In this document: positions 11,631 to 28,355 of the stretch, piece by piece
Numbering within the stretch: position 1 is the first letter of the stretch
Layout of the letters: each line of letters starts with the position of its first letter
DNA from: Pararhodobacter zhoushanensis
Lineage (GTDB): Bacteria > Pseudomonadota > Alphaproteobacteria > Rhodobacterales > Rhodobacteraceae
Direction of reading: 5' to 3'
NCBI RefSeq assembly: GCF_003990445.1
Contig: NZ_REEZ01000001.1
Coordinates: 372,001-436,000 of the forward strand
DNA length: 64,000 bases
Position numbers and translations under genes: made by a program
Notes under the pieces: generated by a model
What the model was told of the DNA's origin: nothing
Database searches by the model: none
What the model saw: only the letters and a program-made list of their open reading frames with translations

Positions 11631-12167
11631 TTATTCGTCGTCGCGCCCTTCGGGCAGATCGCCGTCATGGGTTTCGGCAAGCCGGTCGACAAGACGGTAC
11701 AGCACATCGAAGAACACCGCGCGCTCTTGCGGGGTGATGCCGGTGAACCAGTCGGCATGGCGCAGGCGCGTCGCTTCCTGTACCGCGCGGGCGCAGCGCG
11801 TCCCCTCTGCGGTTAAGGTTAACAAGTTGGCGCGTCGGTCCGTGGCGCTGCGTTCGCGCGTCAGGAAACCGCGGGTTTCGAGCCGTTGCACCACCCGCGT
11901 CACGGCGGATTTCTTGAGCACCAGCGATGCGGCAAGATCGTTCTGGGTCACACCGGGATTGGCGTCCAGCACCGCCAGCACCCCGATATCCCCCGCCTCG
12001 AGGGCGAAATCGTGGCGCAGACCTTCGCCTTGCGGGCGCAGCAGATAGCGCAGGCTGCGGGTGAGAAACGGCAGATCCTCGGCCAGCCATCCGGCGCAGA
12101 TGACGGCGCCGGATTTGAACCGGAACGCGCGGTCTTCCTGAGGGGCGGGCTGGACGGGATCACTCAT
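11631..12167 (-). CDS. MarR-family transcriptional regulator
   Basis: A 178-aa winged-helix regulator. The DNA-recognition part lies at about residues 65-125 (NDLAASLVLKKSAVTRVVQR, then a wing with RSATDRRANLLTLT). I chose the ATG at 12167 (MSDPVQP) over a start ten codons upstream. It is divergent from the island of 2-hydroxyacyl-CoA-dehydratase-like, CoA-transferase, TRAP, P450 and flavoprotein genes. A TAGTTCAT-containing dyad in its promoter region matches a perfect palindrome before the CoA-transferase gene, so it probably represses the island and responds to an aromatic acid or its CoA thioester (inference). Confidence 0.85.
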   Translation of the reverse strand: MSDPVQPAPQEDRAFRFKSGAVICAGWLAEDLPFLTRSLRYLLRPQGEGLRHDFALEAGDIGVLAVLDANPGVTQNDLAASLVLKKSAVTRVVQRLETRGFLTRERSATDRRANLLTLTAEGTRCARAVQEATRLRHADWFTGITPQERAVFFDVLYRLVDRLAETHDGDLPEGRDDE

Positions 12168-12239
12168 CACGCCAACCTGCCCGGCGCGCGAGGCCAAGGC
12201 AAGGGGCCGCAGCTCGACACGCTTGACCGGCGCCTCATT

Positions 12240-12258
12240 TAGTTCATAAAATAAACTT
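12240..12258. promoter_or_regulatory. Candidate MarR operator, copy 1 (imperfect)
   Basis: The sequence TAGTTCATAAAATAAACTT matches 15 of 19 bases of the perfect palindrome at 14420-14438. It sits between the divergent marR gene and the first gene of the island, about 12 bases before the ribosome-binding site of the latter. This is the expected place for an autoregulatory MarR site. Confidence 0.55.
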
Positions 12259-12278: not shown

Positions 12279-13151
12279 GTGAGCGCTTCAGTTCTGCTAT
12301 TTGGTCACGGCGTGCCCCTGTCGGACCCGGTGCTCGCCGGACTGGCCGTGCGCGATATAACCCGGCTTTTTCAGGAACCCGCCCCCGGCAGCCGCATCGA
12401 CGCGCTGCTCGAACCCTTCCTCGACCCCTATGTTCGCGGCTTCCTGCTGGGGATGGAAGCGCGGGCCTTCGATGAGGCCGCCGCGATTGTCGTCTGGCGA
12501 CAGGGAGCCGGGGCGCTGCATGCCTATCGCTATGCCACGGAACTGCGACGGCAAGGCCTGCTGCCAGCGGGGCCGCCCCTGCATCTTTGGAACCGCGCTG
12601 TCAGCGCAGGCCCGGCGGCGCAGGTCTTTGACGCGCGGCAGGATGCGCAACTCACACAGGCGCTGGCGCGTTTGCCGCGCGAGACACCGGTCGACCGCGC
12701 CGGACCTCTGGCCGTGCTTGAGGCGATGCAGGCCGCAGCGCAGATCACCGGCGGCGAGGCGTTCCGGCGGCGGTTGCGCGCGCGGGCCTGCGGCGAGCCA
12801 GTAAGCACCGCGCCGGTTCAAGCGCCTGCGAGCGACCGTACTGCCGGCCCCCGTTTCGCTTTGGCCGGCGCCCCCCTCGGCGGACGCGAGTTGCACGCAT
12901 GGCTGGACCGGCAGGGGGCACTGGTTCTTGACCTGCAGGGGCCGGATGCGCCGCGCGATGATGTCGGCGACCTGCTCACACGGCGCAGGGTCTCGGTGCT
13001 GGTCTGGCAGGTCGACCCGAACGACGATCTGCATGGTTGGCGCAAACCCGCGCTCTTGCGGCTCTGTGCCAAGATGGGGATCCGGTTTGTCGACCTTGGC
13101 TTCCTCTCTCCCTGGCCCCAACGCCCTGATTTACCGAAAGTTCTGCGATGA
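12279..13151 (+). CDS. 2-hydroxyacyl-CoA dehydratase / BcrC-like small subunit, degenerate
   Basis: A 290-aa protein from GTG 12279 (GGAGGA upstream). It is weakly recognisable as the smaller partner of 2-hydroxyacyl-CoA dehydratase or benzoyl-CoA reductase B/C subunits: an N-terminal domain with AAAIVVWRQGAGALHAYRYA, a middle helical part, and a C-terminal Rossmann-like half ending VDPNDDLHGWR. It overlaps the larger homologue by an ATGA. It contains only two cysteines, neither at the places where this family binds its [4Fe-4S] cluster. The function may therefore differ from dehydration. The family call is from pattern and context and is tentative. Confidence 0.5.
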   Translation: MSASVLLFGHGVPLSDPVLAGLAVRDITRLFQEPAPGSRIDALLEPFLDPYVRGFLLGMEARAFDEAAAIVVWRQGAGALHAYRYATELRRQGLLPAGPPLHLWNRAVSAGPAAQVFDARQDAQLTQALARLPRETPVDRAGPLAVLEAMQAAAQITGGEAFRRRLRARACGEPVSTAPVQAPASDRTAGPRFALAGAPLGGRELHAWLDRQGALVLDLQGPDAPRDDVGDLLTRRRVSVLVWQVDPNDDLHGWRKPALLRLCAKMGIRFVDLGFLSPWPQRPDLPKVLR

Positions 13152-14407
13152 CACGCGCTCTGGATTGTACCGCCGAGGCCGCCGCCTATCAGCGCGACTG
13201 GGCCAAGGGTTTGCGCGCGCGGCTGGCAGCGGGTGAGCCCTATGCCTTTGCCAATGCCGATACGCCGATGGAGGTGTTTCATGCACTGGGGATGCCGGTG
13301 GTGGTCAACCAGTGGTGGTCTTCGGTCATCGCGGCCAAGAAGCTGAGCGCAGCGCATCTGGCCGCGTCCGAGGCCGCCGGGTTTCACGGGCGGCTGGCCA
13401 AATACTCGGCCCTTCCGCTCTTTGCGGCGATGGATGGCCGGCCCGAGATGCAGCCGTGGGGCGGCCTGCCTGCTCCGGGTTTGCTCTGCGCGCGGGCCAG
13501 TGCCGATGACCACCCGCTGATCTTTGCCGAATGGGCGCGCCTGACCGGCGCTCCGCTGCGCATTCTCAGCGCGCCGGGGCATCCCGACCCGGCACCCGAC
13601 TGGTGGGACATGTTGCGTGACGGATGGGAAAAAGGCACCGGCGGCGACCGGCTGGACCTGATGGTGGCCGAGATCGAGGATCTGACCGCGCTGGCCGAGG
13701 AGGTAGCCGGGCGGCGCACGCCGGACGGCGCGCTGGCGGGGTTGATGGCGCGGATTGACCGGCAGGAACGCCTGTTCGACGAGGCCGCGCAGATGATCGC
13801 CGAAGCGCCGCGCTGCCCGATCCGCATCTCGGAAATGATCCCCAACGTGATGATCCCGCAATGGCACCGCGGCAGCGACTGGGCGCTGGCCCATGCCGAG
13901 CGGTTCCGCGACGCGGTGGCGGCGCGCATCGCCGAGGGGGCAGCGGTGGTTGAGGACGAGCAGGTCCGCATGATGTGGATAGGCGCGGGACTGTGGTTCG
14001 ACACTGGATTTTATCAGGCGTTCGAAGCGCTTGGCGCCGTGTTCGCGTGGTCGATGTACCTTCCCTTTGCGGCTGACGGCTATCTGCGCACCGATCATGG
14101 TGATCCGATGCGCGCGCTGGCCGCGCGGGTCATCGACCTGAACGAACACCTGCACCAGCCCCCCTGGGCCGGTGCATGGCACGTCAAGGAAGCACTACGT
14201 GCGCGGATTGATCTGGCGGTGATCATCGTGCCGGAAAGCGACCGGCCCTCGGGCTATGGCACACGGTTCATCGCGCGGGCGCTGGAGCAAGCCGGGGTCA
14301 AAACCGTGACAATCGAGGCCGATATGGTCGATGCACGGGCGTGGGATGGCGACAAAGCGCGGGCGTTGGTGATGGATGGGATCGAGCGGGCGCGAAAAGA
14401 GCGTTGA
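13148..14407 (+). CDS. 2-hydroxyacyl-CoA dehydratase family protein (HgdB/BcrB-like), cysteine-poor
   Basis: A 419-aa protein with the two-domain plan of HgdB/FldB/BcrB (PF06050). It has an N-terminal TPMEVFHALGMPVVV segment, a LLCARASADDHP strand, a helical hairpin, and a C-terminal IGAGLWFDTGFYQAFEALGA domain ending with a VIIVPESDRPSGYG loop. In true dehydratases that last loop carries a cluster-ligating cysteine; here it has none, and only the cysteine in LLCARAS falls at a plausible ligand position. No ATP-dependent activator (HgdC/BcrA type) is encoded nearby. It is co-transcribed with the preceding gene. It may be a CoA-thioester-binding enzyme with altered chemistry. Confidence 0.65.
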   Translation: MTRALDCTAEAAAYQRDWAKGLRARLAAGEPYAFANADTPMEVFHALGMPVVVNQWWSSVIAAKKLSAAHLAASEAAGFHGRLAKYSALPLFAAMDGRPEMQPWGGLPAPGLLCARASADDHPLIFAEWARLTGAPLRILSAPGHPDPAPDWWDMLRDGWEKGTGGDRLDLMVAEIEDLTALAEEVAGRRTPDGALAGLMARIDRQERLFDEAAQMIAEAPRCPIRISEMIPNVMIPQWHRGSDWALAHAERFRDAVAARIAEGAAVVEDEQVRMMWIGAGLWFDTGFYQAFEALGAVFAWSMYLPFAADGYLRTDHGDPMRALAARVIDLNEHLHQPPWAGAWHVKEALRARIDLAVIIVPESDRPSGYGTRFIARALEQAGVKTVTIEADMVDARAWDGDKARALVMDGIERARKER

Positions 14408-14419
14408 CAGACTCTCAAT

Positions 14420-14438
14420 TAGTTCATTGAATGAACTA
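14420..14438. promoter_or_regulatory. Candidate MarR operator, copy 2 (perfect palindrome)
   Basis: TAGTTCATTGAATGAACTA is a perfect 9-1-9 inverted repeat ending 16 bases before the start of the CoA-transferase gene and overlapping the probable leader. A 15/19 match occurs in the marR divergent promoter. The shape and size fit MarR-family operators. Confidence 0.65.
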
Positions 14439-14454
14439 CAAGGGAGGGCCATTC

Positions 14455-15579
14455 ATGGCACAACGCGCGTTGACCGGACTCAGGGTCGCGGATTTCAGCC
14501 ATGTCGTGGCCGGTCCGCTGGCCACGCATTTTCTGGCCCTCAACGGTGCCGAGGTGGTCAAAATCGAGCCGCCGCGCGGCGATGCCCTGCGCAATTACAC
14601 GTTGGACCCGGCGCAGCGCGGCATGGCCCCGGCCTTTGGCGGGATCAACATCGGCAAGACCTCGGTCGTGCTGGATCTCAAGACCGAAGAGGGCCGCGCT
14701 AAGGCCGAAGCCATCATCGCGCAAAGCGATGTGGTGGTCGAGAATTTCCGTCCCGGCGTGATGGCCCGTCTCGGTCTGGGGCCTGCCGAAATGCGGGCGA
14801 AATATCCGCATCTGATCTGGTGCGCGGTGTCGGGCTTTGGCCAGTCCGGGCCGATGGCCGATGTCGCGGCGATGGATCAGATCATCCAGAGCCTGTCAGG
14901 CGTCATGCAGCTGAGCGGCCTGCCCGGCGATCCCGCCCTGCGCATCGGCTTTCCGCTGGTCGACACCTTCACCGGGCTGCTTGCCGCCTTTGCCATCCAG
15001 ACGGCGCTGCTGCAGCGCGAGCGCGGGCTTGTGGCGGGGCAAGAGATTGACGTAGCGATGCTGGATGCGGCGCTGGTCATGCTGCTGTCGGTGGTCAACC
15101 CGCTGCTGATGACCGGCGAGGAACCCCTGCGCACCGGCAACCGGGGCTTCAGCCGCGCGCCGACCTCGGACACTTTCGCCTGCGCTGACGGCGAGATCAC
15201 CATCGGCGCGGTCGAGGACTGGCATGTCGCCAAGCTGCTTGCTGTGCTGGGGCTGGCCGATCTGCTGGACGATCCCGCCTATGCCACCCGAACCGCCCGT
15301 GCCGCCCATGCCGACGCGCTTGCCGCGAGGCTGGCGGCGGCGCTGGCGACCCAGCCCGCAGCGCACTGGGAGGATGCGTTGCGGGCTGTCGGTGTCCCCG
15401 CCGCGCGGGTGCAGGATGTGGGCCAAGCCGTGGCCATGCCGCATCTCGCCCAGCGCGATCTGTTTCTGACGCTGCCTGCCCCAGATGGCGGTACGCAGCG
15501 CGTTCTGAACGCCGGGTTCCGGTTCCGCGAGGGCGGACCGGGCACCGACCGGCCTGCCCCCGTTCTGGGGGCTGGCTGA
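14455..15579 (+). CDS. CaiB/BaiF-family (class III) CoA-transferase
   Basis: A 374-aa family III CoA-transferase that moves CoA between acyl donors and a carboxylic acid. It shows the N-terminal VADFSHVVAGPLATHFLA segment and the VVENFRPGVMARLGLG motif of the family. The ATG at 14455 follows AAGGGAGGG; an ATG 8 codons earlier lies inside the operator palindrome and is rejected. It heads a tight operon with a TRAP transporter, two P450s and two flavin monooxygenases, suggesting that the imported acid is activated to a CoA thioester. The substrate is unknown. Confidence 0.88.
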   Translation: MAQRALTGLRVADFSHVVAGPLATHFLALNGAEVVKIEPPRGDALRNYTLDPAQRGMAPAFGGINIGKTSVVLDLKTEEGRAKAEAIIAQSDVVVENFRPGVMARLGLGPAEMRAKYPHLIWCAVSGFGQSGPMADVAAMDQIIQSLSGVMQLSGLPGDPALRIGFPLVDTFTGLLAAFAIQTALLQRERGLVAGQEIDVAMLDAALVMLLSVVNPLLMTGEEPLRTGNRGFSRAPTSDTFACADGEITIGAVEDWHVAKLLAVLGLADLLDDPAYATRTARAAHADALAARLAAALATQPAAHWEDALRAVGVPAARVQDVGQAVAMPHLAQRDLFLTLPAPDGGTQRVLNAGFRFREGGPGTDRPAPVLGAG

Positions 15580-15615
15580 CGACTTCATCGCAATCCACTG
15601 GGAGGAGGATTCACC

Positions 15616-16623
15616 ATGACTAAGCTTTTCAAACTGAGCGGCGCTCTGACCGCCGCACTGATGATCGCCTCGGGCGCGCAGGCGCTTGAGTTGCGGCTGT
15701 CGGTGGAAACCCCGCCGGGCCATGTGCGCAATCAGGCGGCCGAGCATTGGGCGGCGGCGATTGCCGAGCTGTCGGGCGGCGACATCACGGTCGAGGTGTT
15801 CCCGGCCGGTCAGCTCTATAACTCGGCCGATGCGATCCGGGCACTGGCCTCGGGCGCGCTGGATCTGTCAATTCAGGCCAGCCCGACGCTGAGCCGGCTT
15901 GAGCCGAACCTGAGCGTGATCACCCTGCCGATGTTCTTTGGCGCCACCCGCGATGACATCCGCGCGGTGCTGGATGGCCCGCTGGGGGCCGAGCTGTGGG
16001 GCATGGTCGCCCAGCGCGGTATCGTGGTGCCCGAAGGCGGGCATTTCGAATTCGCCCCCAACAACACCGCCTACACCACCGAACCCGCGGCCAGCTATGA
16101 GGATCTGGCGGGCCGCACCGTCGCCACCCCGCCCAGCCCGGTCGTGGTGCAGATCATGAGCGCGATGGGCATCAACGGCGTAGCCACCCCGCGCACCGAG
16201 ATCGTACTGCAACTGACGCAGGGCCAGATTCAGGGGCTGGGGTCGGTCACCGATCTGACCATCTCAGGCGGGCGTCTGTGGGAGGCGGGCATTCGCTATG
16301 CCTTCAACGATAACGCGGGCTGGGGGGTCTATATCCCCCTCGTCTCGGCCCGCACGCTGGACGCCATGACCGAAGAACAGCGCGGCGTGATCAATCAGGC
16401 ATGGGCGCAGGTCGTCGGCTGGGCGCGTGACGCCTCGGCCGAAGAGCTGGAGCATGCCCGCGCCACGAATGAGGAAAACGGCATCACCTATGCCGATCCG
16501 TCCGACGAGATGATCGCTGCGATGCGCACGCAGATGATGGATCTTCAGCCCGCGATCGTCGACGCCTCAGGGATGAACGCCGATTTCGTTGGTCGCGTCG
16601 CGGCAGCGTTGCACAGCCAGTGA
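15616..16623 (+). CDS. TRAP transporter substrate-binding protein (DctP type)
   Basis: A 335-aa periplasmic receptor. It has a signal peptide ending near SGAQA, then LRLSVETPPGH and an FPAGQLYNSADAIRALASG segment typical of DctP proteins. GGAGGA precedes the ATG. It is followed by dctQ and dctM homologues, completing a TRAP system. Such receptors usually hold an arginine that pairs with a ligand carboxylate, so an organic acid is the likely cargo. Context points to the same compound that the CoA-transferase and oxygenases act on. Confidence 0.9.
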   Translation: MTKLFKLSGALTAALMIASGAQALELRLSVETPPGHVRNQAAEHWAAAIAELSGGDITVEVFPAGQLYNSADAIRALASGALDLSIQASPTLSRLEPNLSVITLPMFFGATRDDIRAVLDGPLGAELWGMVAQRGIVVPEGGHFEFAPNNTAYTTEPAASYEDLAGRTVATPPSPVVVQIMSAMGINGVATPRTEIVLQLTQGQIQGLGSVTDLTISGGRLWEAGIRYAFNDNAGWGVYIPLVSARTLDAMTEEQRGVINQAWAQVVGWARDASAEELEHARATNEENGITYADPSDEMIAAMRTQMMDLQPAIVDASGMNADFVGRVAAALHSQ

Positions 16624-16676
16624 CACGTCGGTCAGGCGGCCGCCCCGCCTGACCACCCTTCCCCGCGGAGTCTGAG

Positions 16677-17192
16677 ATGCTTGAGCGATTACTCTCGATC
16701 TGGTCACGGATCGAAACCGTGCTGATCGGCACATTGGTGCTGTGCGCGCTGTTCACCTTCATGGGCGGCGCCGCGCTGCGGGTTCTGGCCCCGCAGCATG
16801 CGGTCGACTGGGCCGACGAGGTTGCGCTCTATTTCATCGTCTGGGCCACCGCGCTGGGGGGCAGCGTGCTGGCGGCAGAAGGCCGTCACATCAACACCGA
16901 AATTCTGGTGACCGGCCTGCCCCCGCATCTGCGCCGCGCGGCGGTATTGTTCACCGGCGCGCTGACACTGGCGTTCTGTGCCGCGATGTTCTGGTTTGGC
17001 TGGGAAGCCTTTGAATTCTCGAAAATGCTCGATGACCGTTCGGCATCCAGTCTGCGGACACCACAAGCATGGACACTGTTTCTGGCGCTGCCTGTCGGCA
17101 TGGGTCTGATGGCCCTGCGCATCGTTCTGCTGGCGATTGTCGGACGCGGGATCACCACTGCTGCTGAAGCGCTGCCCGGAAAGGTCGAATAA
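16677..17192 (+). CDS. TRAP transporter small permease (DctQ type)
   Basis: A 171-aa integral membrane protein with four transmembrane helices, including WADEVALYFIVWATALGGSV, the conserved W-x-E helix 2 motif of DctQ subunits. Its stop overlaps the dctM start by one base (TAATG). It pairs with the large DctM subunit to form the sodium-driven permease. Confidence 0.88.
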   Translation: MLERLLSIWSRIETVLIGTLVLCALFTFMGGAALRVLAPQHAVDWADEVALYFIVWATALGGSVLAAEGRHINTEILVTGLPPHLRRAAVLFTGALTLAFCAAMFWFGWEAFEFSKMLDDRSASSLRTPQAWTLFLALPVGMGLMALRIVLLAIVGRGITTAAEALPGKVE

Positions 17193-18472
17193 TGGAAGCG
17201 ATCCTTGGTCTGGGCGGGCTGCTGGTGCTGATGGCACTGGGCGCGCCGATCTTCGTGGCTTTGGGCGTGTCGGCACTGGTCATGCTGTCGTTCGAGGGAC
17301 GTCCGCTGATGGACGCGGCGATGACGTCGATCTCGGGCATCAACTCGACGACGTTTCTTGCCGTGCCGTTCTTCGTCATGGCCGCCACCTTCATGCAGCG
17401 CGGCGGTATCGCCCGCATCATCATCGACGCCGCCGAGGCCTGGGTCGGCCATTTCCGTGGCGGCTTGGGGCTGGTCTGCGTGCTGGCAACGACGCTGTTC
17501 GCGGCGATCAGCGGCTCGTCCGTGGTCACCGCGATGGCGATGGGCACCTTCCTGATCCCCGCCATGATGGCGCGCGGCTATGACCGCCCCTTCGCGCTGG
17601 GCACTGTCGGCGCCTCGGGCACGCTGGGCATCCTGATCCCGCCGTCGCTGTCGATGATCCTCTATGGCCTGATCGCCGAAGTCTCGGTCCCGCGCCTGTT
17701 CCTTGCAGGGGTGATCCCGGGCCTCATTCAGGCGGTGATCCTTGCGGTCGTGGTGATGATCATCTCGCGCAAGAAAGGCTATGCCTCGGGCACCCGCGTG
17801 TCGGGGGCCGAGTTCGTCCGCCGCAACCTGCGCGCCCTGCCCGCGCTGTTCATCCCGATCTCGGTCTTTGTCGGCATCTATACCGGCATCACCACCGTCA
17901 CCGAATCCGCCGGGGTTGCCGCGATCGCCTCGGTCCTGATCGCGGTGCTGGTCTACCGCGAGGTGACCTGGCGCGACATTTTCGGGATGACCGCCGAGGC
18001 GATGAAAGCCGCCTCGGCCGTGACCTTCATCGTCATGTTCGCCATGCTCTTCGCCCATTGGATCACCGGCAGCGGCATCCCCACGGCGCTGGTCCGCTGG
18101 GCCGCCGCAACCGGCCTGTCACCGTGGCAATTCCTCATCGCGCTGAACGTGATCATGCTTATCATGGGCATGTTCCTTGATGCCGTGGCGGTGCTGCTGA
18201 TCGTCACCCCCATCGTACTGCCGCTGCTGCCCGCCCTTGGCATCGACCCGATCCATTTCGGCATCATCCTGATCGTGAACATGGAGATCGCGTTCCTCAC
18301 GCCGCCGATTGGCCTGAACCTGTTCGTGCTCTCCTCCATCGCCAAAGCCCCGCTCAGCGAGGCGATCCGCGGCGTGCTGCCCTTCGTGGCTGCGATGGCG
18401 GTGTTCCTGATCCTTGTCACCTACATACCGGAGATATCGCTATGGCTGCCGACGACGGTGTTCGCCCGATGA
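17192..18472 (+). CDS. TRAP transporter large permease (DctM type)
   Basis: A 426-aa member of the ion-transporter superfamily with about 12 transmembrane segments. It includes SGSSVVTAMAMGTFLIPAM and the TLGILIPPS motif, both diagnostic of DctM. It forms the transport core of the TRAP system encoded with the two preceding genes. Its 3' end overlaps the first P450 gene, so transporter and oxidases are translationally linked. Confidence 0.92.
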   Translation: MEAILGLGGLLVLMALGAPIFVALGVSALVMLSFEGRPLMDAAMTSISGINSTTFLAVPFFVMAATFMQRGGIARIIIDAAEAWVGHFRGGLGLVCVLATTLFAAISGSSVVTAMAMGTFLIPAMMARGYDRPFALGTVGASGTLGILIPPSLSMILYGLIAEVSVPRLFLAGVIPGLIQAVILAVVVMIISRKKGYASGTRVSGAEFVRRNLRALPALFIPISVFVGIYTGITTVTESAGVAAIASVLIAVLVYREVTWRDIFGMTAEAMKAASAVTFIVMFAMLFAHWITGSGIPTALVRWAAATGLSPWQFLIALNVIMLIMGMFLDAVAVLLIVTPIVLPLLPALGIDPIHFGIILIVNMEIAFLTPPIGLNLFVLSSIAKAPLSEAIRGVLPFVAAMAVFLILVTYIPEISLWLPTTVFAR

Positions 18473-19641
18473 TCCCGCATGACTGGGACCCGACCTCGGC
18501 CGACGTGCAGGCCGATCCGCAAGCCGCGCTGCTCGATCTGCGCGAGCGCTGCCCGGTCGCCGGATCGCAGAACTGGGGCGGGTTCTATACGCTGACCAAG
18601 TATGACGATGTGGTCATGGCGTCCAAGGACTACGCACGCTTCACTGCGACCGTGCAGACGGTGATCCCGGCCAGCCCGCGCAAGGGTCTGCCTCGCCTGC
18701 CGTTGCAAAAAGACCCCCCCGAGGCGATGCGCTATCGCAAGGGGCTGAACCTGTTCTTCAAGGAAAACCGCATCCGGGCGATTGAAGCACCGACGCGGGC
18801 ACTGGCCGAGCAACTGGCCGAGGCGCTGCAAACCGCCGAGGCTCCGGAATTCGGCACCGGCTTCGCCGCGCCCTTCACCGTGGGCAGCCTGTGCATTCTG
18901 GCCGGCATGGATCTTGACGAGGCCGAGGAGCTGGGCCGTCTGGGCCATGATTACGTCGCCGCGGTGCAGGGCCTCGACATGCCCGCCGCGGGCCGCATCA
19001 GCCAGGCGATTGACGGATTCGCCATTGCACTGGTCAAGGACCGCGTCGCCAAACCGCGCGATCCCGAGACCGACATCGTCAGCGGGTTGATGGCCTTTGC
19101 GCCCGAAGGCGGGCCGTATAGTTTCGAGGAACTGGCGGGCATGGTCCGCCTGATGCTGATCGGCGGGCATGTCGTGCCGCGCAACTTCCTGTGCTCGATG
19201 GCGTGGCATCTGGCGCGCGACACCGACCTGCAGGCCCGCCTGCGCGACGGCACCGCCGACCGCCGCCTGCTGATCGAAGAGATGCTGCGCTGCTATTCGC
19301 CCAATCAGGCGCTGGTGCGCGTCGCGACCGAAGACACCGAACTGCGCGGCGTCACCATCCCGCAGGGCTGCCCGGTCGCGCTGAACTACCTCAGCGCCAA
19401 CCGCGACCCCGAGGTATTCGACGCACCGATGGACTTCATCGAAGACCGCAGCCCCAACCGCCACCTCGCCTTCGGCATCGGCCCGCATATCTGCCTCGGC
19501 CAAGCCGTCGCCAAGCTGCAGGCCCGTATCACGCTCGACGTGCTGGCCGCCCTGCCCGCCTTCACGTTGGGCGACAACACCCGCTGGGCACGCTGGACGG
19601 AATACGGCGTCACCCATCTGGATCTGAGGTTCGCATCATGA
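18442..19641 (+). CDS. Cytochrome P450 (atypical I-helix), first of pair
   Basis: A 399-aa soluble bacterial P450. It has the haem-binding loop FGIGPHICLGQ with proximal Cys351 and an EEMLR ExxR motif. The I-helix reads LIGGHVVPRNF, so both the acidic residue and threonine of the usual AGxDT oxygen-activation motif are missing. The start at 18442 has GGAG 8 bases upstream but overlaps dctM by 31 bases; the ATG at 18469 would give an ATGA overlap and is an alternative. No ferredoxin or reductase gene is nearby. Substrate unknown, presumably the TRAP cargo. Confidence 0.9.
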   Translation: MAADDGVRPMIPHDWDPTSADVQADPQAALLDLRERCPVAGSQNWGGFYTLTKYDDVVMASKDYARFTATVQTVIPASPRKGLPRLPLQKDPPEAMRYRKGLNLFFKENRIRAIEAPTRALAEQLAEALQTAEAPEFGTGFAAPFTVGSLCILAGMDLDEAEELGRLGHDYVAAVQGLDMPAAGRISQAIDGFAIALVKDRVAKPRDPETDIVSGLMAFAPEGGPYSFEELAGMVRLMLIGGHVVPRNFLCSMAWHLARDTDLQARLRDGTADRRLLIEEMLRCYSPNQALVRVATEDTELRGVTIPQGCPVALNYLSANRDPEVFDAPMDFIEDRSPNRHLAFGIGPHICLGQAVAKLQARITLDVLAALPAFTLGDNTRWARWTEYGVTHLDLRFAS

Positions 19642-20819
19642 CCCACCCCGCCGATTTCACCGTCCCCGAGGTCGAGGATTTCGACAGCCCGCACGCCCTG
19701 TTTGCCGAGCTGCGCGGGCATTGTCCGGTCGCCTGGGCCGATGAAATGGGCGGTTTCTGGGCGGTGACCAAACACGCCGACATCTGCCGCGTGCTGACCG
19801 AATGGCAGACCTTTACCACCACCGTGCAGAACGTGGTGCCCCGCGTCGCCACCACCCAGCGCCGCCCGCCGCTGCATCTGGACCCGCCGGGTAACATCCC
19901 CTACCGCAACGCCATTTTGCGCTTTCTCAGCCCCCGGCGGATCGAGGAGTGGAAGCCGGTGATCGCTGCGATGGTGGCCGAGCATTTCGACCCGTTCGTC
20001 GCGGCAGGCGGCGGCGATATCTGCGCCGATTTCTCGTTCACCCTGCCGATCGCGCTGCTGGCCGAGTTCTTCCGCCTTGCGCCCGATGAAGCGGCAGAGA
20101 TCCGCATCGTCGGTGCCGAGTTCAACATGGCGCTGCAACGGCAGGATTTCGACCTGCTGCGCGAACGCTCGGATGCGCTTTACAACATCGCCGCGCGGCT
20201 GATCGAGGACCGCAAGGCCAACCCGCAAGACCCCGATCTGGACCCGGTGTCAAACCTGCTGGCCGTCCGGGTTGACGGTGCGGCGCTCCCCGATGACAAG
20301 ATCCTCGGCGCGCTGCGGCAGTTCCTGCTGGTCGGCATCATCGCGCCGACCACCTTCATCGGCTCGATGGCCGTGCACCTTGCCCGTCACTCCGAGCACC
20401 ACGCGGAACTGACCGCAAACCCCGACCTGGTGCCGGTTGCGCTGGAAGAACTGCTGCGCCTCTACACCCCCTATCGTGGCTTTGCCCGCACGGCGACGCG
20501 CGACGTCGAGCTGGGCGGCAAGCTGGTCAAAGAGGGCGATCCGCTGGCCGTGGTCTTCACCTCGGGCAACCGGGACGAGGATGTCTTTCCCGATCCGCAC
20601 AGCTACCGGCTGGACCGGGTCGAGCCCGATCTGGTCACTTTTGGCCGTGGCCCACATATGTGCCCCGGCTCGCCGCTGGCGCGGGTGCTGCTGGCCGAAG
20701 TGCTGCTCCAAATCGTGCAGAAAACCCGTGATCTGCGCCTGACCGGCACGATGGAAATGACCCGCTGGCCGGAATATGGACCCCTTGCCGTTCACCTTGC
20801 GTTGACACCTGCCCGATAA
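19638..20819 (+). CDS. Cytochrome P450 (atypical I-helix), second of pair
   Basis: A 393-aa P450 related to the preceding one and overlapping it by ATGA. It has the haem loop FGRGPHMCPGSP with proximal Cys342 and an ALEELLRLY ExxR helix. The I-helix reads LVGIIAPTTF, again without the acid-threonine pair at the canonical position; both paralogues share a proline there. The two proteins align over their whole length but are clearly diverged, which suggests either different steps or a heteromeric arrangement. The redox partners must come from elsewhere. Confidence 0.9.
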   Translation: MTHPADFTVPEVEDFDSPHALFAELRGHCPVAWADEMGGFWAVTKHADICRVLTEWQTFTTTVQNVVPRVATTQRRPPLHLDPPGNIPYRNAILRFLSPRRIEEWKPVIAAMVAEHFDPFVAAGGGDICADFSFTLPIALLAEFFRLAPDEAAEIRIVGAEFNMALQRQDFDLLRERSDALYNIAARLIEDRKANPQDPDLDPVSNLLAVRVDGAALPDDKILGALRQFLLVGIIAPTTFIGSMAVHLARHSEHHAELTANPDLVPVALEELLRLYTPYRGFARTATRDVELGGKLVKEGDPLAVVFTSGNRDEDVFPDPHSYRLDRVEPDLVTFGRGPHMCPGSPLARVLLAEVLLQIVQKTRDLRLTGTMEMTRWPEYGPLAVHLALTPAR

Positions 20820-20847
20820 CCTGCGGTCACCATAGACCGGAGGGAGC

Positions 20848-22113
20848 ATGACACGGGTCATCATTGCAGGGGCCGGAATTGCCGGGCTGGTTACTGCCCT
20901 GACGCTGCGCCAGATCGGGGTCGCATGTACTGTGTACGAAGCGGCGCCCGAGATGCAGCGCGCAGGCGTTGGCATCAACCTGCAGCCCAATGCGGTGAGA
21001 GAGCTTTACGATCTGGGGATCGCCGGGGCGCACCTGAACTCTGTCGGCTTGCCGCTCAGGGAATGGGCCATGGTCAGCCTGAATGGCAAGGACATCAGCA
21101 GTGAGCAGCGCGGCATCCATGCCGGGTTTCACTGGCCGCAATTCTCGGTCGATCGCGGCATGCTCCATGCCATGCTCTATAGAATCGCGATGCAGCGCCT
21201 TGGCACGCATTGTGTGGTTCTGGGCGCGCGCATCACAGGCTACCGGCAGACTCGTGACGGTGTGACGGCACTGTTTGCTGACGGCCGAGAAGAAAGGGGC
21301 GCGATTCTGGTAGCAGCAGACGGGATCCATTCGGGCGTGCGCGCCCAGATGTACCCTGATCAGCCCCCCATCAACCGGGCCGAAGGTGTGCTCTGGCGGG
21401 GTGTGACGCGTGCGCGTCCGATGCGCACAGGCTCAAGCGCGATAGCAGTCGGCACGAAAGACAAGCGGCTCGTCTTTTTCCCCATCTCGCATCCGGGCAG
21501 GGAAGGGTTGGCCAAGATCTGCTGGATCGCGCATCTGGTGCGTGGCGAACAAACGGTGCGTCCGGACGGAGCCTTGTTTAACCCTGTCCAGCCCATTGAA
21601 ATTGCAAAACACTTTGCTGGCTTTTGCAAGGATTGGCTCGACGCTGGCACGTTGATCCGCACCGCCGAGGTCGCCTTCGAAACGCCGATGCGGGACCGTG
21701 ATCCAGTCCCCACTTGGCGCGATGGCCGCGTCGTGCTGCTGGGTGCCGCTGCCCATCCGATGTTTCCCACAGGTGCCAACAGCGCAAGCCAGGGTATCAT
21801 CGACGCCCGTGTGCTGGGTGCCAGCATTGTCGAACATGGTCTCACGGAATGGGCGCTCGATCTCTATGATGACAAGCTGTGCGCACCGATTTCAGCGGTG
21901 GTGGAAAGCAACCGCGCCGAGGGGCCTTTCGAGCTGTTCAGCATCATCGACGCCCGTTGCGGCGGGTCCTTTGACGATATCGAAGAGGTCTGCCCCACCG
22001 CCGAACGCGCGCGGTATCTGGCGCGCTTCGTGGCCATCACCGGGTTTGCGGCTGACCAGTTGAACAAGACACCGCCGATCATCGCGCCCGGCGCCCGGGC
22101 CTCGATTGCCTGA
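20848..22113 (+). CDS. FAD-dependent monooxygenase (salicylate-hydroxylase/PhzS-like), copy 1
   Basis: A 421-aa class A flavoprotein monooxygenase. It has the dinucleotide fold GAGIAGLVTALTL at the N-terminus and a mid-protein AADGIHSGVR (DG) motif. The second FAD motif, normally GDAAH, reads LGAAAHPMFPTG, so the conserved aspartate is Ala300. Its tandem paralogue keeps the aspartate. It lies 28 bases after the P450 pair, behind a GGAGGGAGC site. Its codon usage looks slightly less GC-rich than its neighbours. It may hydroxylate an aromatic ring, or have weakened FAD binding. Confidence 0.85.
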   Translation: MTRVIIAGAGIAGLVTALTLRQIGVACTVYEAAPEMQRAGVGINLQPNAVRELYDLGIAGAHLNSVGLPLREWAMVSLNGKDISSEQRGIHAGFHWPQFSVDRGMLHAMLYRIAMQRLGTHCVVLGARITGYRQTRDGVTALFADGREERGAILVAADGIHSGVRAQMYPDQPPINRAEGVLWRGVTRARPMRTGSSAIAVGTKDKRLVFFPISHPGREGLAKICWIAHLVRGEQTVRPDGALFNPVQPIEIAKHFAGFCKDWLDAGTLIRTAEVAFETPMRDRDPVPTWRDGRVVLLGAAAHPMFPTGANSASQGIIDARVLGASIVEHGLTEWALDLYDDKLCAPISAVVESNRAEGPFELFSIIDARCGGSFDDIEEVCPTAERARYLARFVAITGFAADQLNKTPPIIAPGARASIA

Positions 22114-22209
22114 GCAAGCCTGCAACGCCGCCAAAAGCCGCGCGCGCCCTGTTGCTCCGGCGGCGTTTTCTTGCGAAAACGCGCGCGGATCATTCAGGGG
22201 GATACAGGG

Positions 22210-23496
22210 ATGACGCAAAAGGTGATGATTGCCGGGGGCGGTATCGGCGGTCTGGTCACAGCGTTGACGCTGCATCAGATCGGCGTCGACTGTGTGGTCT
22301 TCGAATCCGTGCGCGCGCTCAAACCTCTGGGCGTGGGGATCAACCTGCAGCCCAACGCGGTGCGCGAACTGTATGATCTGGGCTTTGGGCCTGAGGTTCT
22401 GGATTCCGTCGGCGTTCCGGCGCGCGAATGGGCGCTGGTCGGGCTGAATGGCAACGACATCTATGCCGAACCGCGCGGTGAACTGGCAGGCTACAACTGG
22501 CCGCAATACGCCGCGCATCGCGGCGCGCTGCACATGCTGCTTTACCAGACGGTCTGCGACCGGTTGGGCGCCGATGCGGTGCAACTGGGCCGCCGGGTGA
22601 CCGGCTACCGCCAGAATGCCGATGACAGCGTGACCGCCCTGTTCGACGATGGGCGCGAAGAAACCGGGGCGTTCCTGATTGGCGCGGACGGCATCCATTC
22701 CGCCATCCGCGCGCAGATGCACCCCAATCAGCCGCCGATCCACTGGGGCGGCGCGGTGATGTGGCGCGGCGTGACGCGCGCCAAGCCGATCCGCACGGGC
22801 AGCAGTTTTGTCGGCCTTGGTACGCACAAACACCGCATGGTGATCTATCCGATTTCGCACCCCGATGCCGATGGCATGGCCGATATCAACTGGATCGCCG
22901 AGGTCACCTATGACGACCCCTCGGCGCGCGAAAATACCGGCTGGTTCCGTGAAGTTGCGATCGAGGATTTCGCCCATCACTTCGATGGCTGGACCTATGA
23001 CTGGCTGGACGTACCGGCGCTGATCCGGGCGGGCAGCATTGCCTATGAAAACCCGATGATCGACCGTGACCCGGTGGACACCTGGCGCGATGGCAATGTG
23101 TTGCTGATCGGCGACGCGGCGCATGCGATGTATCCCACGGGCTCGAACGGGGCCAGTCAGGCGATTGTGGACGCGCGCATTCTGGGCGCGAGCATGGTTG
23201 CAAACGGCTTGACCACGCAAGCGCTTGCCGCGTTCGATCAGCAACTCTGCGGCCCGATCTCAGCCGTGATCCTGCGCAATCGGGGGGCCGGGCCGTTTGG
23301 CTTGCTGAACATGGTGGATGAACGCTGCGGCGGCGAGTTCGATGATATCGATGCGGTGATTTCACCCGACGAGCGCAGTGGGTTCATGGCCGGCTACAAG
23401 GCCGCCGCGGGGTTTGCCATCGAAAAGCTGAATGCGGCCCCGCCGACGATCCCAGCGGGTGCCCGCGTCAAGAGAACCGCGCCAGTCGTCGGCTGA
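22210..23496 (+). CDS. FAD-dependent monooxygenase (salicylate-hydroxylase/PhzS-like), copy 2
   Basis: A 428-aa paralogue of the upstream gene. It has GGGIGGLVTALTL, an intact GADGIHSAIR DG motif and the intact LIGDAAHAMYPTG GD motif (Asp302). Long stretches such as GVGINLQPNAVRELYDLG are identical in both copies, so they arose by tandem duplication. The start at 22210 is preferred to an upstream ATG inside the intergenic region. NAD(P)H-dependent hydroxylation of an aromatic or cyclic acid is the likely reaction. It is the last gene of the island. Confidence 0.88.
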   Translation: MTQKVMIAGGGIGGLVTALTLHQIGVDCVVFESVRALKPLGVGINLQPNAVRELYDLGFGPEVLDSVGVPAREWALVGLNGNDIYAEPRGELAGYNWPQYAAHRGALHMLLYQTVCDRLGADAVQLGRRVTGYRQNADDSVTALFDDGREETGAFLIGADGIHSAIRAQMHPNQPPIHWGGAVMWRGVTRAKPIRTGSSFVGLGTHKHRMVIYPISHPDADGMADINWIAEVTYDDPSARENTGWFREVAIEDFAHHFDGWTYDWLDVPALIRAGSIAYENPMIDRDPVDTWRDGNVLLIGDAAHAMYPTGSNGASQAIVDARILGASMVANGLTTQALAAFDQQLCGPISAVILRNRGAGPFGLLNMVDERCGGEFDDIDAVISPDERSGFMAGYKAAAGFAIEKLNAAPPTIPAGARVKRTAPVVG

Positions 23497-23511: not shown

Positions 23512-23982
23512 CTAGCAGCGCTGATTGAGCGTCTTGGCTGCGTTTTCTATTCCGTCGGCCATTGCCGTGAAGAACACCGCCAGCCCGTCGAGCCGCTTGT
23601 GCGGCGTGGCGTCGTCTGGCAACTCGCTGGCAAAGCCCTGCACGGCCTGCGACGTGCTGCGCATGCGGGTTGCGATGGTCTGCAACAGCACACAGAATGA
23701 CTCGTCGGCCAGCTGGAAATAGTCCTGCCGGTCTCCGGGCATGTTCACCTTGATGATTGATCCGCGCTGAACCAACGCGCGCGCATTGGCGCTGATGCTG
23801 CCCCGGCTGACCCCCAGCTCGGTTGCCAGATCGCTGAACGAGCGCGGTTCGCCGTCAAAGATCAGCAGACCCAGAATACGCCCGGCAATCGGCGGCATGC
23901 CATTGCCTTCAAGAGCATGACCCATAAAGTCGATAAAATTGGCGCGTGTGGTCAAAATATGCGTTGTCATCGTATCTTCCAT
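23512..23982 (-). CDS. GbsR/MarR-type transcriptional regulator
   Basis: A 156-aa winged-helix protein of the GbsR (COG1510) group. It has GNGMPPIAGRILGLLIFDG followed by a helix-turn-helix with LGVSRGSISANARALVQRG and a C-terminal dimerising helix. It is divergent from an RND efflux operon, 138 bases away, with GTTCA-type dyads between them. This is the common arrangement of a local efflux repressor. Two starts are possible (23982 or 23970); the first has AGGGG upstream. Confidence 0.82.
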   Translation of the reverse strand: MEDTMTTHILTTRANFIDFMGHALEGNGMPPIAGRILGLLIFDGEPRSFSDLATELGVSRGSISANARALVQRGSIIKVNMPGDRQDYFQLADESFCVLLQTIATRMRSTSQAVQGFASELPDDATPHKRLDGLAVFFTAMADGIENAAKTLNQRC

Positions 23983-24082: not shown

Positions 24083-24120
24083 AAATCATGGTGCCGCTTG
24101 GCCCATTGACGGAGATCCGG

Positions 24121-25302
24121 ATGCACGCTGCCCCTTCCTCTCTTATCCGGACGGCCGCCGCCGCCTTGGGTTTGCTGATGGCGCCCCTGCCCCTGATGGC
24201 GCAAGAGGCGTCGGTCGAACCGCGCCCGGCGCCCTCGGTAACCGTCGCCACGGCCGCGGTGCATCCGTTGCAGCAGGTGGTGCCGGTGTCGGGTTCCTTG
24301 ATCGCCCGCAGCGAGGTGCTGGTCTCGCCGCACGCGGGCGGCTACGCAATCACCGAACTGAATGCCGATATCGGCGATCATGTCGAAGCCGGTGAGGTGT
24401 TGGCGCGCATAGACGACCGCACGCTGGCACTGCGCGTGCGTCAGGCCGAAGCGGCGCTGGCCAATGCGGAAGCGGCGCAAGGACAGGCCCGAAGCCAGGT
24501 CAACTCCAGCGAAGCCCAGCTTCAGCAAGCCAATCAGGTGCTCGAACGCGCGCGCGCGCTGCGCTCAAGCGGGACCGCGACGCAATCGGCACTGGATGAG
24601 GCTCTGGCCGCGCAGCTGAGCGCACAGGCCAATGCGCAATCGGCGCGCGACGGCGTGCAGGCCGCAGGGGCGGCGCTGCAACAGGCGCAGGCGTCGCTGG
24701 AAGTGGCGCAGCTGGATTTCGAGAACGCCGAAATCACCGCGCCCGTGGCTGGCATCGTCTCGGACCGCAACGGTCAGATCGGCGCGATTGCCGCAACCGG
24801 CGGCGAGCCGATCTATCGGTTGATCGAGGATGGTGTGGTCGAGGTCGCCGCCGAAGTGATCGAGACCGAGCTGGTACTCTTGCACCCCGACGATCCGGCG
24901 ACCCTGAACATTGCAGGGCTGGCACCGGTCACGGGCCATGTCCGCCTGATCGCCCCGGTGGTCAGCCCGACCACCCGCTTGGGCGAGGTGCGCATTTCGC
25001 TGGATGACACGACCGGCCTGCGTCCCGGCCTGTACGTCGGCGGACGCATCGTGGTGGCTGATCGCACCGGGCTGGCAGTTCCCGTCGCTTCGGTTTTGCG
25101 CGATGTGGAGGGCAGTTTCGTGCTGCGTCTGGGGGCCAACGACACGCTTGAGCGCCGCATGATCCAGACCGGCATCGCGTGGGATGGTTGGCAAGAGGTC
25201 ACGGACGGGCTGGTCGAGGGCGATGAGGTTGTCGCGCGGGCCGGGGCCTTTTTTGGCGATGGCGACGTGATCCGCCCGGTGCGTGAAGGGGCCGCAGAAT
25301 GA
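24121..25302 (+). CDS. RND efflux periplasmic adaptor subunit
   Basis: A 393-aa HlyD/AcrA-type adaptor. It has a signal peptide ending near PLPLMAQ, a lipoyl-like half (LNADIGDHVEAGEVLARID), a long coiled-coil hairpin (residues about 105-185), a second lipoyl half (ITAPVAGIVSDRNGQIG) and a C-terminal beta-barrel. The ATG at 24121 has GGAG 6 bases upstream, better placed than the ATG at 24088. It overlaps the RND pump gene by ATGA and bridges the pump to an outer-membrane channel encoded elsewhere. Confidence 0.9.
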   Translation: MHAAPSSLIRTAAAALGLLMAPLPLMAQEASVEPRPAPSVTVATAAVHPLQQVVPVSGSLIARSEVLVSPHAGGYAITELNADIGDHVEAGEVLARIDDRTLALRVRQAEAALANAEAAQGQARSQVNSSEAQLQQANQVLERARALRSSGTATQSALDEALAAQLSAQANAQSARDGVQAAGAALQQAQASLEVAQLDFENAEITAPVAGIVSDRNGQIGAIAATGGEPIYRLIEDGVVEVAAEVIETELVLLHPDDPATLNIAGLAPVTGHVRLIAPVVSPTTRLGEVRISLDDTTGLRPGLYVGGRIVVADRTGLAVPVASVLRDVEGSFVLRLGANDTLERRMIQTGIAWDGWQEVTDGLVEGDEVVARAGAFFGDGDVIRPVREGAAE

Positions 25303-28300: not shown

Positions 28301-28355
28301 GCTGGGCAAGGTGCTGGCCGGGGACAAACGCCCTGACGAGCAGCAGATCCACTAA
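25299..28355 (+). CDS. RND efflux transporter, AcrB/MdtB-like inner-membrane pump
   Basis: A 1018-aa hydrophobe/amphiphile efflux pump of typical length with 12 transmembrane helices and two large periplasmic loops. Helix 4 carries the proton-relay aspartates in GILVDDAIVEIENI, and helices 10-11 carry GIVTKNAIMLVEF. No outer-membrane TolC gene follows, so the complex probably recruits a shared TolC. The adaptor upstream and the GbsR-type regulator complete the locus. Substrates are unknown, but the pump lies directly after an aromatic-oxidation island. Confidence 0.93.
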   Translation: MNLSTWSIRQPVPPIALFVVLCIAGLVSFGRLPVTEMPNVDLPVITIGVAAPGTAPSEIASQVIQPIEDEVSDIAGLRHIEATARDGVAELVIQFEMGTNTDRALNDVKDAVTSARDQMPDTTSDPVVQRLDFTGRPILTFAVADQTRSIEELSSFVDDVVARALQGAAGVGSVTRLGGAEREIRVDLDPDRLVALNLSASSISQQLAQTNLDQGGGQGDLFGSEYVIRALGSAPTLEQLAATPIRLPTGQTVPLNQLGTVTDGASEASSFALYNGRPVVAFGVYRATGASDLLAAENAEARLDELRTQYPDTEFSLIDDATIYTEANFDSAMETLYEGALLAIIVVFLFLRNWRATVVAFVALPLSAIPTFIVMDLLGFSLNTISLLGITLVVGILVDDAIVEIENIDRHIHMGKSAYEAAIEAATEIGTTVVAISLTIVAVFAPVSFMGGIAGEFFKQFGLTVAVAVLFSLAVARLITPLFAAYFMKSKAVVHEVKDGFIMRAYMRVLRWTLRNRTITLLFGLMLFAGSIYSATLLPQEFVPPSDTGRSVVTVELPPGTTLPEARRTAQVVSERVFEVPEIQRVFVNGSSATSLSLQVNYGDKSERERSWTEVNADIAAHLADLPDLRVFVLGEEGQRDISINVLADTQTAVAQAATDLLHEMRSLPELRGVSSEAALRRPEIQITPNPERAAEMGVTASTLAAAVRVATIGDIDANLAQFDAGEERIPIRVRLNEAARSDISRLAGFRIPSSSGTMVPLSAVADVQLASGVSIIERYDRRYRVTIQADLAPGVYLGPASEAINALPAASNMPEGAELQASGDVETMNEIFSSFALAMGAGLMLVYVVLVLLFNSFVTPLTIMLSLPLAIGGAIFALYIYGSGIGLSVVIGFLMLMGIVTKNAIMLVEFALTSVAEGKDRAAAMIDAGHKRARPIVMTTIAMAAGMVPSALGSATGGEFRAPMAVAVIGGLLLSTALSLLFVPSVFSVLEGLKDRLRWLLGKVLAGDKRPDEQQIH

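Follow-up and report, generated by a model that had tools for sequence, protein, structure and literature searches.

A conserved island of Pararhodobacter zhoushanensis links P450s with a dehydratase-like protein pair lacking iron-sulfur cluster ligands

Introduction

The 2-hydroxyacyl-coenzyme A (CoA) dehydratases and class I benzoyl-CoA reductases described so far are oxygen-sensitive radical catalysts with an ATP-driven electron supply. In known dehydratases, the clusters are held by three cysteines and an activase is required (PMC11574389). A stretch of 64,000 nucleotides from the 4.83-Mb genome of Pararhodobacter zhoushanensis (contig NZ_REEZ01000001.1, positions 372,001 to 436,000; the whole stretch is called the window below) contains, at 12279-23496, an island of ten co-directional genes (dhS, dhL, caiB, dctP, dctQ, dctM, cyp1, cyp2, fmo1, and fmo2), in which a dehydratase-like protein pair, dhS and dhL, is found together with two cytochrome P450s and two flavin monooxygenases. 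The question raised by this locus is what such a pair could do in the company of oxygenases. A preliminary description, made from the sequence alone, had proposed an aerobic CoA-dependent route for an imported cyclic or aromatic acid, in which the pair has been repurposed, and the analysis reported here partly supports that interpretation, which appears to be right in its core and unproven in the substrate class. A search of literature titles and abstract openings, with subscription papers mostly beyond its reach, found neither a cysteine-free PF06050 pair nor this island.

Results

dhL matched the PF06050 profile with an E of 2.5e-30 and 106.7 bits (curated cut-off, 28.4). For dhS, no Pfam or NCBIfam model was matched, and comparison with the PDB by sequence profile gave no PF06050 chain; when three of its orthologs were compared with PF06050, L016 matched with an E of 1.1e-12, L023 gave 0.011, which is under the cut-off, and L021 gave no match. 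In profile-profile comparison, a profile of 30 dhS sequences was matched to the partner subunits of five loci with a probability of 99.9 and an E of 3.7e-35; one of those five, the partner subunit of L012, matched PF06050 itself (E 2.6e-28), and the direct comparison of dhS with dhL gave a probability of only 6. The AlphaFold model of dhL, with a mean predicted local distance difference test (pLDDT) value of 91.4, had MbdO (9g87_A; E 8.7e-17, TMq 0.84) as its best Foldseek match in the PDB and also matched BzdO (8s02) and HadB (3o3m_A), and that of dhS (mean pLDDT 89.6) had BzdN (8s02_B; E 1e-8) as the best match and also matched the double-cubane cluster protein (DCCP) and HadC (3o3m_D). Judged by these models, dhL has the fold of the catalytic subunits BzdO, MbdO, and HadB, and dhS that of the subunits with which these pair, in line with the earlier designation of both proteins as dehydratase-like. 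Profile, fold, and conservation together ruled out chance or an annotation artefact for both. In genome G573, a partner-type and a dhL-type domain are joined in a single 788-aa protein (L169, 9757-12123), which is matched by the partner profile at residues 32-326 and by the dhL profile at 374-785; the clade-I dhS profile itself does not match the first of these domains.

The residues of the catalytic center were then placed on dhL by sequence alignment with BzdO, in which, according to PMC11971306, Cys95, Cys128, and Cys380 are the cluster ligands, Glu65 and His131 the acid-base residues, and Tyr97, Tyr298, and Gln274 the thioester contacts; Glu65 and the N-terminal part were placed by gap-free extension. 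All three ligands were found to be replaced, by A84, A119, and D365, and of the three catalytic-subunit cysteines that the functional family requires, none is present in dhL or its 32-row clade. The C-terminal ligand cysteine, which the larger protein had been said to lack, is thus indeed absent, and so are the other two. Glu65 corresponds to N54 and His131 to H122. Both tyrosines contacting the thioester oxygen are retained, Tyr97 as Y86 and Tyr298 as Y304, and Y86 and Y304 are present in 97/97 rows of the dhL family, a pattern that would fit the suggested repurposing for CoA-thioester chemistry. Many charged and aromatic residues of dhL are also invariant across 54 sequences. Cys114 of dhL was considered as a shifted ligand and rejected, as it is at no ligand position and occurs as well in L012 and L036, where three and two ligand cysteines are kept, respectively. 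The small protein had been described as having no candidate ligand; dhS does contain two cysteines, of which C263 is kept in 9 of 10 window-type relatives and the other is not conserved. The commonest cysteine column among the 30 dhS sequences (17/30) is occupied by Val in the dhS of the window, and judging from cysteine conservation among its relatives, dhS appears to lack the cluster cysteines of a partner subunit.

The relatives compared were the best 80 of 91, with L084 dropped for want of a single open frame over the match, L001-L007, L013, L014, L034, and L093 excluded as second copies, and L019/L094 and L028/L095 each probably representing one species twice. Clade I, to which the window belongs, consists of 32 of the 97 dhL-family rows and has no ligand cysteine in any of them. 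Asp365 is present in 32/32 of its rows, a count that is complete by selection because the rows were chosen by residues 119 and 365, [DE]121 is present in 32/32, and residue 122 is His in 27 and Gln in 5. Clade II, with 59/97 rows, was chosen by residues 84 and 119, so that the retention of C84 and C119 is likewise complete by selection; it adds C87, C93, and C121, and its residue 365 is Asn in 55, Ser in 3, and His in 1. Its five conserved cysteines (84, 87, 93, 119, and 121; e.g. L040, 10001-11224) suggest, as far as an alignment can tell, a cluster in a new arrangement or a metal site of a different kind. Asn54 is found in every row of both clades. The hosts of clade II include Sphingomonadales, Caulobacterales, Steroidobacter, and others; L071, from a record titled as a metagenome-assembled genome of Klebsiella pneumoniae, also has a clade-II locus, the label being probably wrong. 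An independent tree recovered clade I with 32 leaves and clade II with 60 leaves (one row having been added), each with a support of 1.0. Outside these clades, L012 (Rhodospirillales bacterium TMPK1) has all three ligand cysteines, L036 has two, and L102, L103, L104, L107, and the fusion L135 are likewise without cluster ligands. The nodes linking these seven to clade I have a support of 0.28 to 0.60, so that more than one order and number of ligand losses would agree with the tree.

The ratio of nonsynonymous to synonymous substitution rates (dN/dS) was approximately 0.09 for dhL against L008 and 0.16 against L009, and approximately 0.24 for dhS against L009, values indicating that both genes are under purifying selection. 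Together with the conserved gene order, they ruled out that the genes are decaying.

The activator model TIGR00241 was matched in 0/20 family-carrying genomes, that of the window included, and in 6/14 control genomes, in agreement with the earlier remark that an activator gene is missing; an activator elsewhere in the genome of the window was thus sought by this model and not found. The same result implies that a recognisable activator is missing even where the family member has cysteines, as in G050 and five genomes of clade II. The broader PF01869 was matched in 14/20 genomes, including that of the window, where the match is presumably of the sugar-kinase type.

The gene-neighbourhood comparison proposed earlier showed that the linkage of the pair to its neighbours is conserved. 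Within the genus, dhL is present in 5/19 genomes, and the order dhS-dhL-caiB-TRAP-cyp1-cyp2 is found in 5/5 of these, the window counted, with fmo2 in 4/5. At 21 other clade-I loci of at least 15 kb, dhS, CaiB, and DctM were found at all 21, MarR at 20, dctP and cyp2 at 14 each, cyp1 at 10, and fmo2 at 3; the motif expression used there undercounts the P450s and was replaced by a listing of rows at ≥39% identity. Additional CaiB genes of three kinds occur at 11/21 of these loci. The caiB of the window matches PF02515 (E 3e-109) and has the AxDQ motif, the Asp of which we take to be catalytic, as expected of a family III CoA-transferase, and the TRAP transporter set is complete by profile matches (DctP, DctQ, and DctM). 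In window-type DctPs, Ala (ATPPSPV) occupies the position of the Arg usual in solved DctPs in 12/12 sequences, and Arg is kept in six DctPs of other types, two from clade I and four from clade II; this Arg position presumably serves carboxylate binding.

At 49 large clade-II loci, DctM was found at 49, CaiB at 45, the small partner subunit and a CapA-like protein at 44 each, and a CocE-like hydrolase at 42. A CaiB-fusion query gave 47/49, which is an upper bound because the query holds an ordinary CaiB domain, and it also matched at 5/21 clade-I loci. The gene order of clade II is visible on three annotated plasmids, and hydrolases and TonB receptors join its loci. Ech, FerA, and Vdh were found at 2/49, 2/49, and 6/49 clade-II loci, respectively, and at 0/21 clade-I loci. 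Tannase/feruloyl esterase, MmgE/PrpD, and hydroxycinnamoyl-CoA hydratase or VanA-like genes adjoin the TMPK1 locus and a small number of those in clade II (L105, L106, and L168). Aromatic genes were rejected as a guide to the substrate, being present beside a few clade-II loci only. The cyclic or aromatic nature of the substrate assumed in the preliminary description found no support.

The pattern AGTTCAT-N3-ATGAACT with ≤3 mismatches has two occurrences in the 64 kb, one in front of dhS and one in front of caiB, a number that is weak in itself (0.56 sites expected; two reached in 11/100 shuffles). At least one match was found at 19/21 clade-I loci scanned and at 18/21 in a partly different set of large loci, and the nearest relatives have the operator at both places. 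Among five loci with a Maritimibacter-like TRAP transporter, caiB, and P450s, four carry the dhS-side operator alone, and in the fifth, L025, there are two additional weak matches. When the pattern was made stricter, 11 sites were found in 9/13 genomes, all within approximately 3 kb of dhL by coordinates, and the reversed-pattern control gave none in the 13 genomes. Further regulon members were sought and rejected, no other operator site being found at ≤1 mismatch in those genomes. Based on these patterns, the operator looks like a local, dedicated switch. The ATG at 14431 falls inside the operator at 14421-14437, and the start of caiB was therefore set at 14455. The overall promoter scan of the window was not above chance, with 3 found versus a mean of 1.8 in shuffles.

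Regarding the P450s, alignment to CYP125 (AGNETT) placed Val-Val in cyp1 and Ile-Ala in cyp2 at the acid-alcohol positions, each followed by Pro, and the best PDB matches of cyp2 are of the CYP125 type. P450cam-type enzymes use the acid-alcohol pair and CYP152 has Arg-Pro there (PMC5377825); neither cyp1 nor cyp2 has this Arg-Pro. The assignment of cyp2 as CYP152-like, with Ala-Pro on the acid-alcohol positions, was rejected because the alignment gives Ile-Ala, with Pro one place later. The motif G-x-[IV]-A-P is present in all 29 readable sequences among 31 cyp2-like rows (≥39% identity, five being second copies of genes already counted); it holds for either clade and for identities as low as 41%, and two more cyp2-type P450s, from G573 and G050, agree with it; that of G573 lies on a different contig (L170) from the dhL-type fusion, beside a gene that appears LacI-like by eye. 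Relatives of cyp2, for which the top 4 or 5 candidates of each genome were scored, were found at 1e-80 in 5/391 genomes of the order, all among the 12 with dhL, and at 1e-60 in 3/337 genomes of the class, each of these being one of the 4 in which dhL has a relative. With the genome of the window excluded, such overlap would arise by chance with a probability of approximately 3e-7 in the order and 5e-5 in the class, values that assume independent genomes, which relatives are not.

The two flavin monooxygenases, which the preliminary description had listed with the island, are optional, as fmo2 relatives were found at only 3/21 large clade-I loci besides the window. The best PDB matches of fmo2, 2rgj and 3c96, correspond to PhzS. 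The GAAAH of fmo1, in place of GDAAH, is common to L008, a 96% dhL relative, but L009 and L010 do not have it in their fmo1-like genes; judging by this motif, fmo1 may be impaired.

Discussion

We consider it somewhat more probable than not that the island represents a locally regulated, aerobic, CoA-dependent route in which dhS-dhL acts as an activator-free acyl-CoA enzyme reusing the old cluster pocket. In this route, the TRAP transporter would import an organic acid, to which CaiB, judged by its family and motif, would transfer CoA, and a dhS-dhL heterodimer would bind the resulting CoA thioester. The binding site would be the pocket lying over the [4Fe-4S] cluster in benzoyl-CoA reductases and 2-hydroxyacyl-CoA dehydratases. 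The reaction there could be non-radical and activator-free, e.g. an elimination, hydration, or bond cleavage, with catalysis through acid-base groups or a mononuclear metal at residues such as [DE]121, [HQ]122, and D365. Because Asp365, present in every clade-I row, falls by alignment into the same former cluster pocket as [DE]121 and [HQ]122, an acid-base or mononuclear-metal site would be the natural hypothesis. The two P450s without the acid-alcohol pair may carry out oxygen-dependent steps, and the flavin monooxygenases would be optional. Aerobic operation is suggested by the presence of the oxygenases and by the lifestyle of the named hosts.

Several observations weigh against this reading. 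Ala280 of dhL aligns with Gln274, one of the thioester contacts in BzdO, Gln replaces His at residue 122 in 5/32 clade-I rows, and it is solely the alignment that puts Asp, Glu, and His into the old cluster pocket. Clade II may still carry a cluster. The lack of the usual Arg in window-type DctP fits uneasily with a simple acid cargo, a cyp2 match at 1e-80 is missing from 7 of the 12 dhL-carrying genomes of the order, and 4/13 dhL genomes have no operator at the stricter pattern. As for the outcomes named in advance as contrary to the preliminary description, namely no dehydratase-like fold, cluster cysteines at shifted positions, and unlinked genes, none was encountered in the window's clade, and clade II partly presents the second, with two ligand cysteines kept and C87, C93, and C121 nearby.

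It could instead be supposed that dhS-dhL is no longer an enzyme and assists CaiB or the P450s in a structural or substrate-channelling role, with the tyrosines merely holding the CoA ester. The loss of all cluster ligands and of the acid-base Glu, the shortness and fast divergence of dhS (≤47% identity outside the genus; dN/dS 0.24), and a CaiB gene at 21/21 large clade-I loci are in keeping with such a role, whereas the many invariant charged and aromatic residues of dhL over 54 sequences, its low dN/dS, and the Asp at the old ligand position in every clade-I row are not, and we regard it as unlikely. That the pair still holds an iron-sulfur (Fe-S) cluster via Asp, His, or Cys114 and acts as a radical dehydratase, with ferredoxin feeding it in place of an ATP-driven activator, appears more doubtful still: rare non-cysteine Fe-S ligands are known (PMC11574389) and in clade II, C84 and C119 persist alongside C87, C93, and C121, but clade I has no Cys at any of the three positions, the presence of Cys114 in L012 beside all three ligands means that it is no replacement, no activator was found by TIGR00241, and window-type dhS has only one conserved cysteine.

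P450s and flavin monooxygenases are usual in tailoring clusters, and the two of each here, with an adjoining RND-type pair, could be taken to indicate a biosynthetic or detoxification cluster, in which they tailor a product, rather than catabolism. The most constant clade-I neighbours are nevertheless TRAP and CaiB (CaiB and DctM at 21/21), clade II adds hydrolases and TonB receptors, and a profile search matched no synthase family in any of the ten genes, so we give this explanation a small chance. An aryl-lactate route, in which CaiB and dhS-dhL would be an aerobic analogue of FldABC converting aryl-lactyl-CoA to cinnamoyl-CoA, would share the gene logic of CaiB plus HGD-D common to the Fld and Had systems and would agree with the hydroxycinnamate genes Ech, FerA, and Vdh beside the few clade-II loci mentioned above. 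These genes are absent from all 21 clade-I loci, however, the window holds only distant (26-28%) relatives of enoyl-CoA hydratase and acyl-CoA synthetase, at 46.8-49.1 kb, and the required chemistry is tied to the lost cluster, which makes this route very improbable.

Compared with known systems, dhS-dhL resembles BzdO/BzdN and MbdO/MbdN of class I benzoyl-CoA reductase in both subunit folds and in the thioester tyrosines but differs in having no cluster cysteines, no Glu65, and no activator found, and in being accompanied by oxygenases. HadBC, FldBC, and HgdAB, which work with activators, have a like fold and an adjoining family III CoA-transferase gene, whereas dhS-dhL lacks the ligands and no activator was found in its genome by TIGR00241. 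The PF06050-type fold of DCCP (6eno and 7yyl) is also alike, without its cluster ligands being present in dhS-dhL. In CYP152 peroxygenases (OleT), the acid-alcohol pair is replaced as in the P450s of the island, by Arg-Pro (PMC5377825), as opposed to Ile/Val-Ala followed by Pro in cyp2 and Val-Val in cyp1.

A wider reading, which we put forward tentatively and hold to be rather unlikely as a whole, is that this lineage has left Fe-S chemistry, its relatives keeping three, two, or no ligands, that the clade of the window has become an oxygen-tolerant acyl-CoA enzyme that needs no activator and may hold a mononuclear metal at the carboxylate and His positions now standing in for the cysteines, and that oxygen activation by the P450s dispenses with the acid-alcohol pair, the substrate possibly assisting. 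Two points lower its odds slightly: the poorly supported order of ligand loss and a P450 motif unlike that of CYP152. If a conserved branch without the cluster has kept the fold and thioester tyrosines, it would be an example of fold reuse; the annotation "dehydratase" in aerobes could then mislead, and an oxygen-tolerant acyl-CoA catalyst would be on offer. The linked P450s would be a natural system for studying oxygen activation without the acid-alcohol pair.

Layout of the island

The features of the island are listed in Table 1. The preliminary description had counted nine mostly overlapping genes under one probable MarR regulator; their common direction was confirmed, the genes number ten, and 4/9 of their junctions overlap. 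As for the regulator, marR1 is divergent and upstream, with an operator between it and dhS, and a second one, marR2, is convergent and downstream.

Table 1. Features of the island and its flanks, in window coordinates
Feature	Position	Strand	Remark
marR1, MarR-type regulator	11631..12167	-	divergent, upstream of dhS; putative role in island
promoter-like site TTGACC-18-TAAAAT (12223-12252), overlapping MarR-type palindrome AGTTCAT-AAA-ATAAACT (12241-12257)	12223..12257	+	
dhS, 290 aa, degenerate PF06050-type partner subunit	12279..13151	+	
dhL, 419 aa, PF06050 subunit, three cluster ligands all replaced	13148..14407	+	
perfect palindromic operator AGTTCAT-TGA-ATGAACT, 5' of caiB	14421..14437	.	
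caiB, family III CoA-transferase, AxDQ motif	14455..15579	+	AGGGAGGG directly before 14455
dctP, TRAP solute-binding protein, Ala at usual Arg position	15616..16623	+	
dctQ, TRAP small permease	16677..17192	+	profile match
dctM, TRAP large permease	17192..18472	+	profile match
cyp1, cytochrome P450, I-helix IGGHVVPRN	18442..19641	+	Val-Val at acid-alcohol positions
cyp2, cytochrome P450, I-helix VGIIAPTT	19638..20819	+	Ile-Ala at acid-alcohol positions, then Pro
fmo1, PhzS-like FAD monooxygenase, GDAAH motif present as GAAAH	20848..22113	+	
fmo2, PhzS-like FAD monooxygenase, best PDB matches 2rgj and 3c96	22210..23496	+	
marR2, second MarR-type regulator	23512..23982	-	convergent, downstream of island

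A terminator between fmo1 and fmo2 was considered and rejected, the match being weak and its folding no better than that of shuffled sequence. Beyond marR2, an RND-type pair is located at 24088-28355, and its first gene also adjoins the island in three relatives of the genus.

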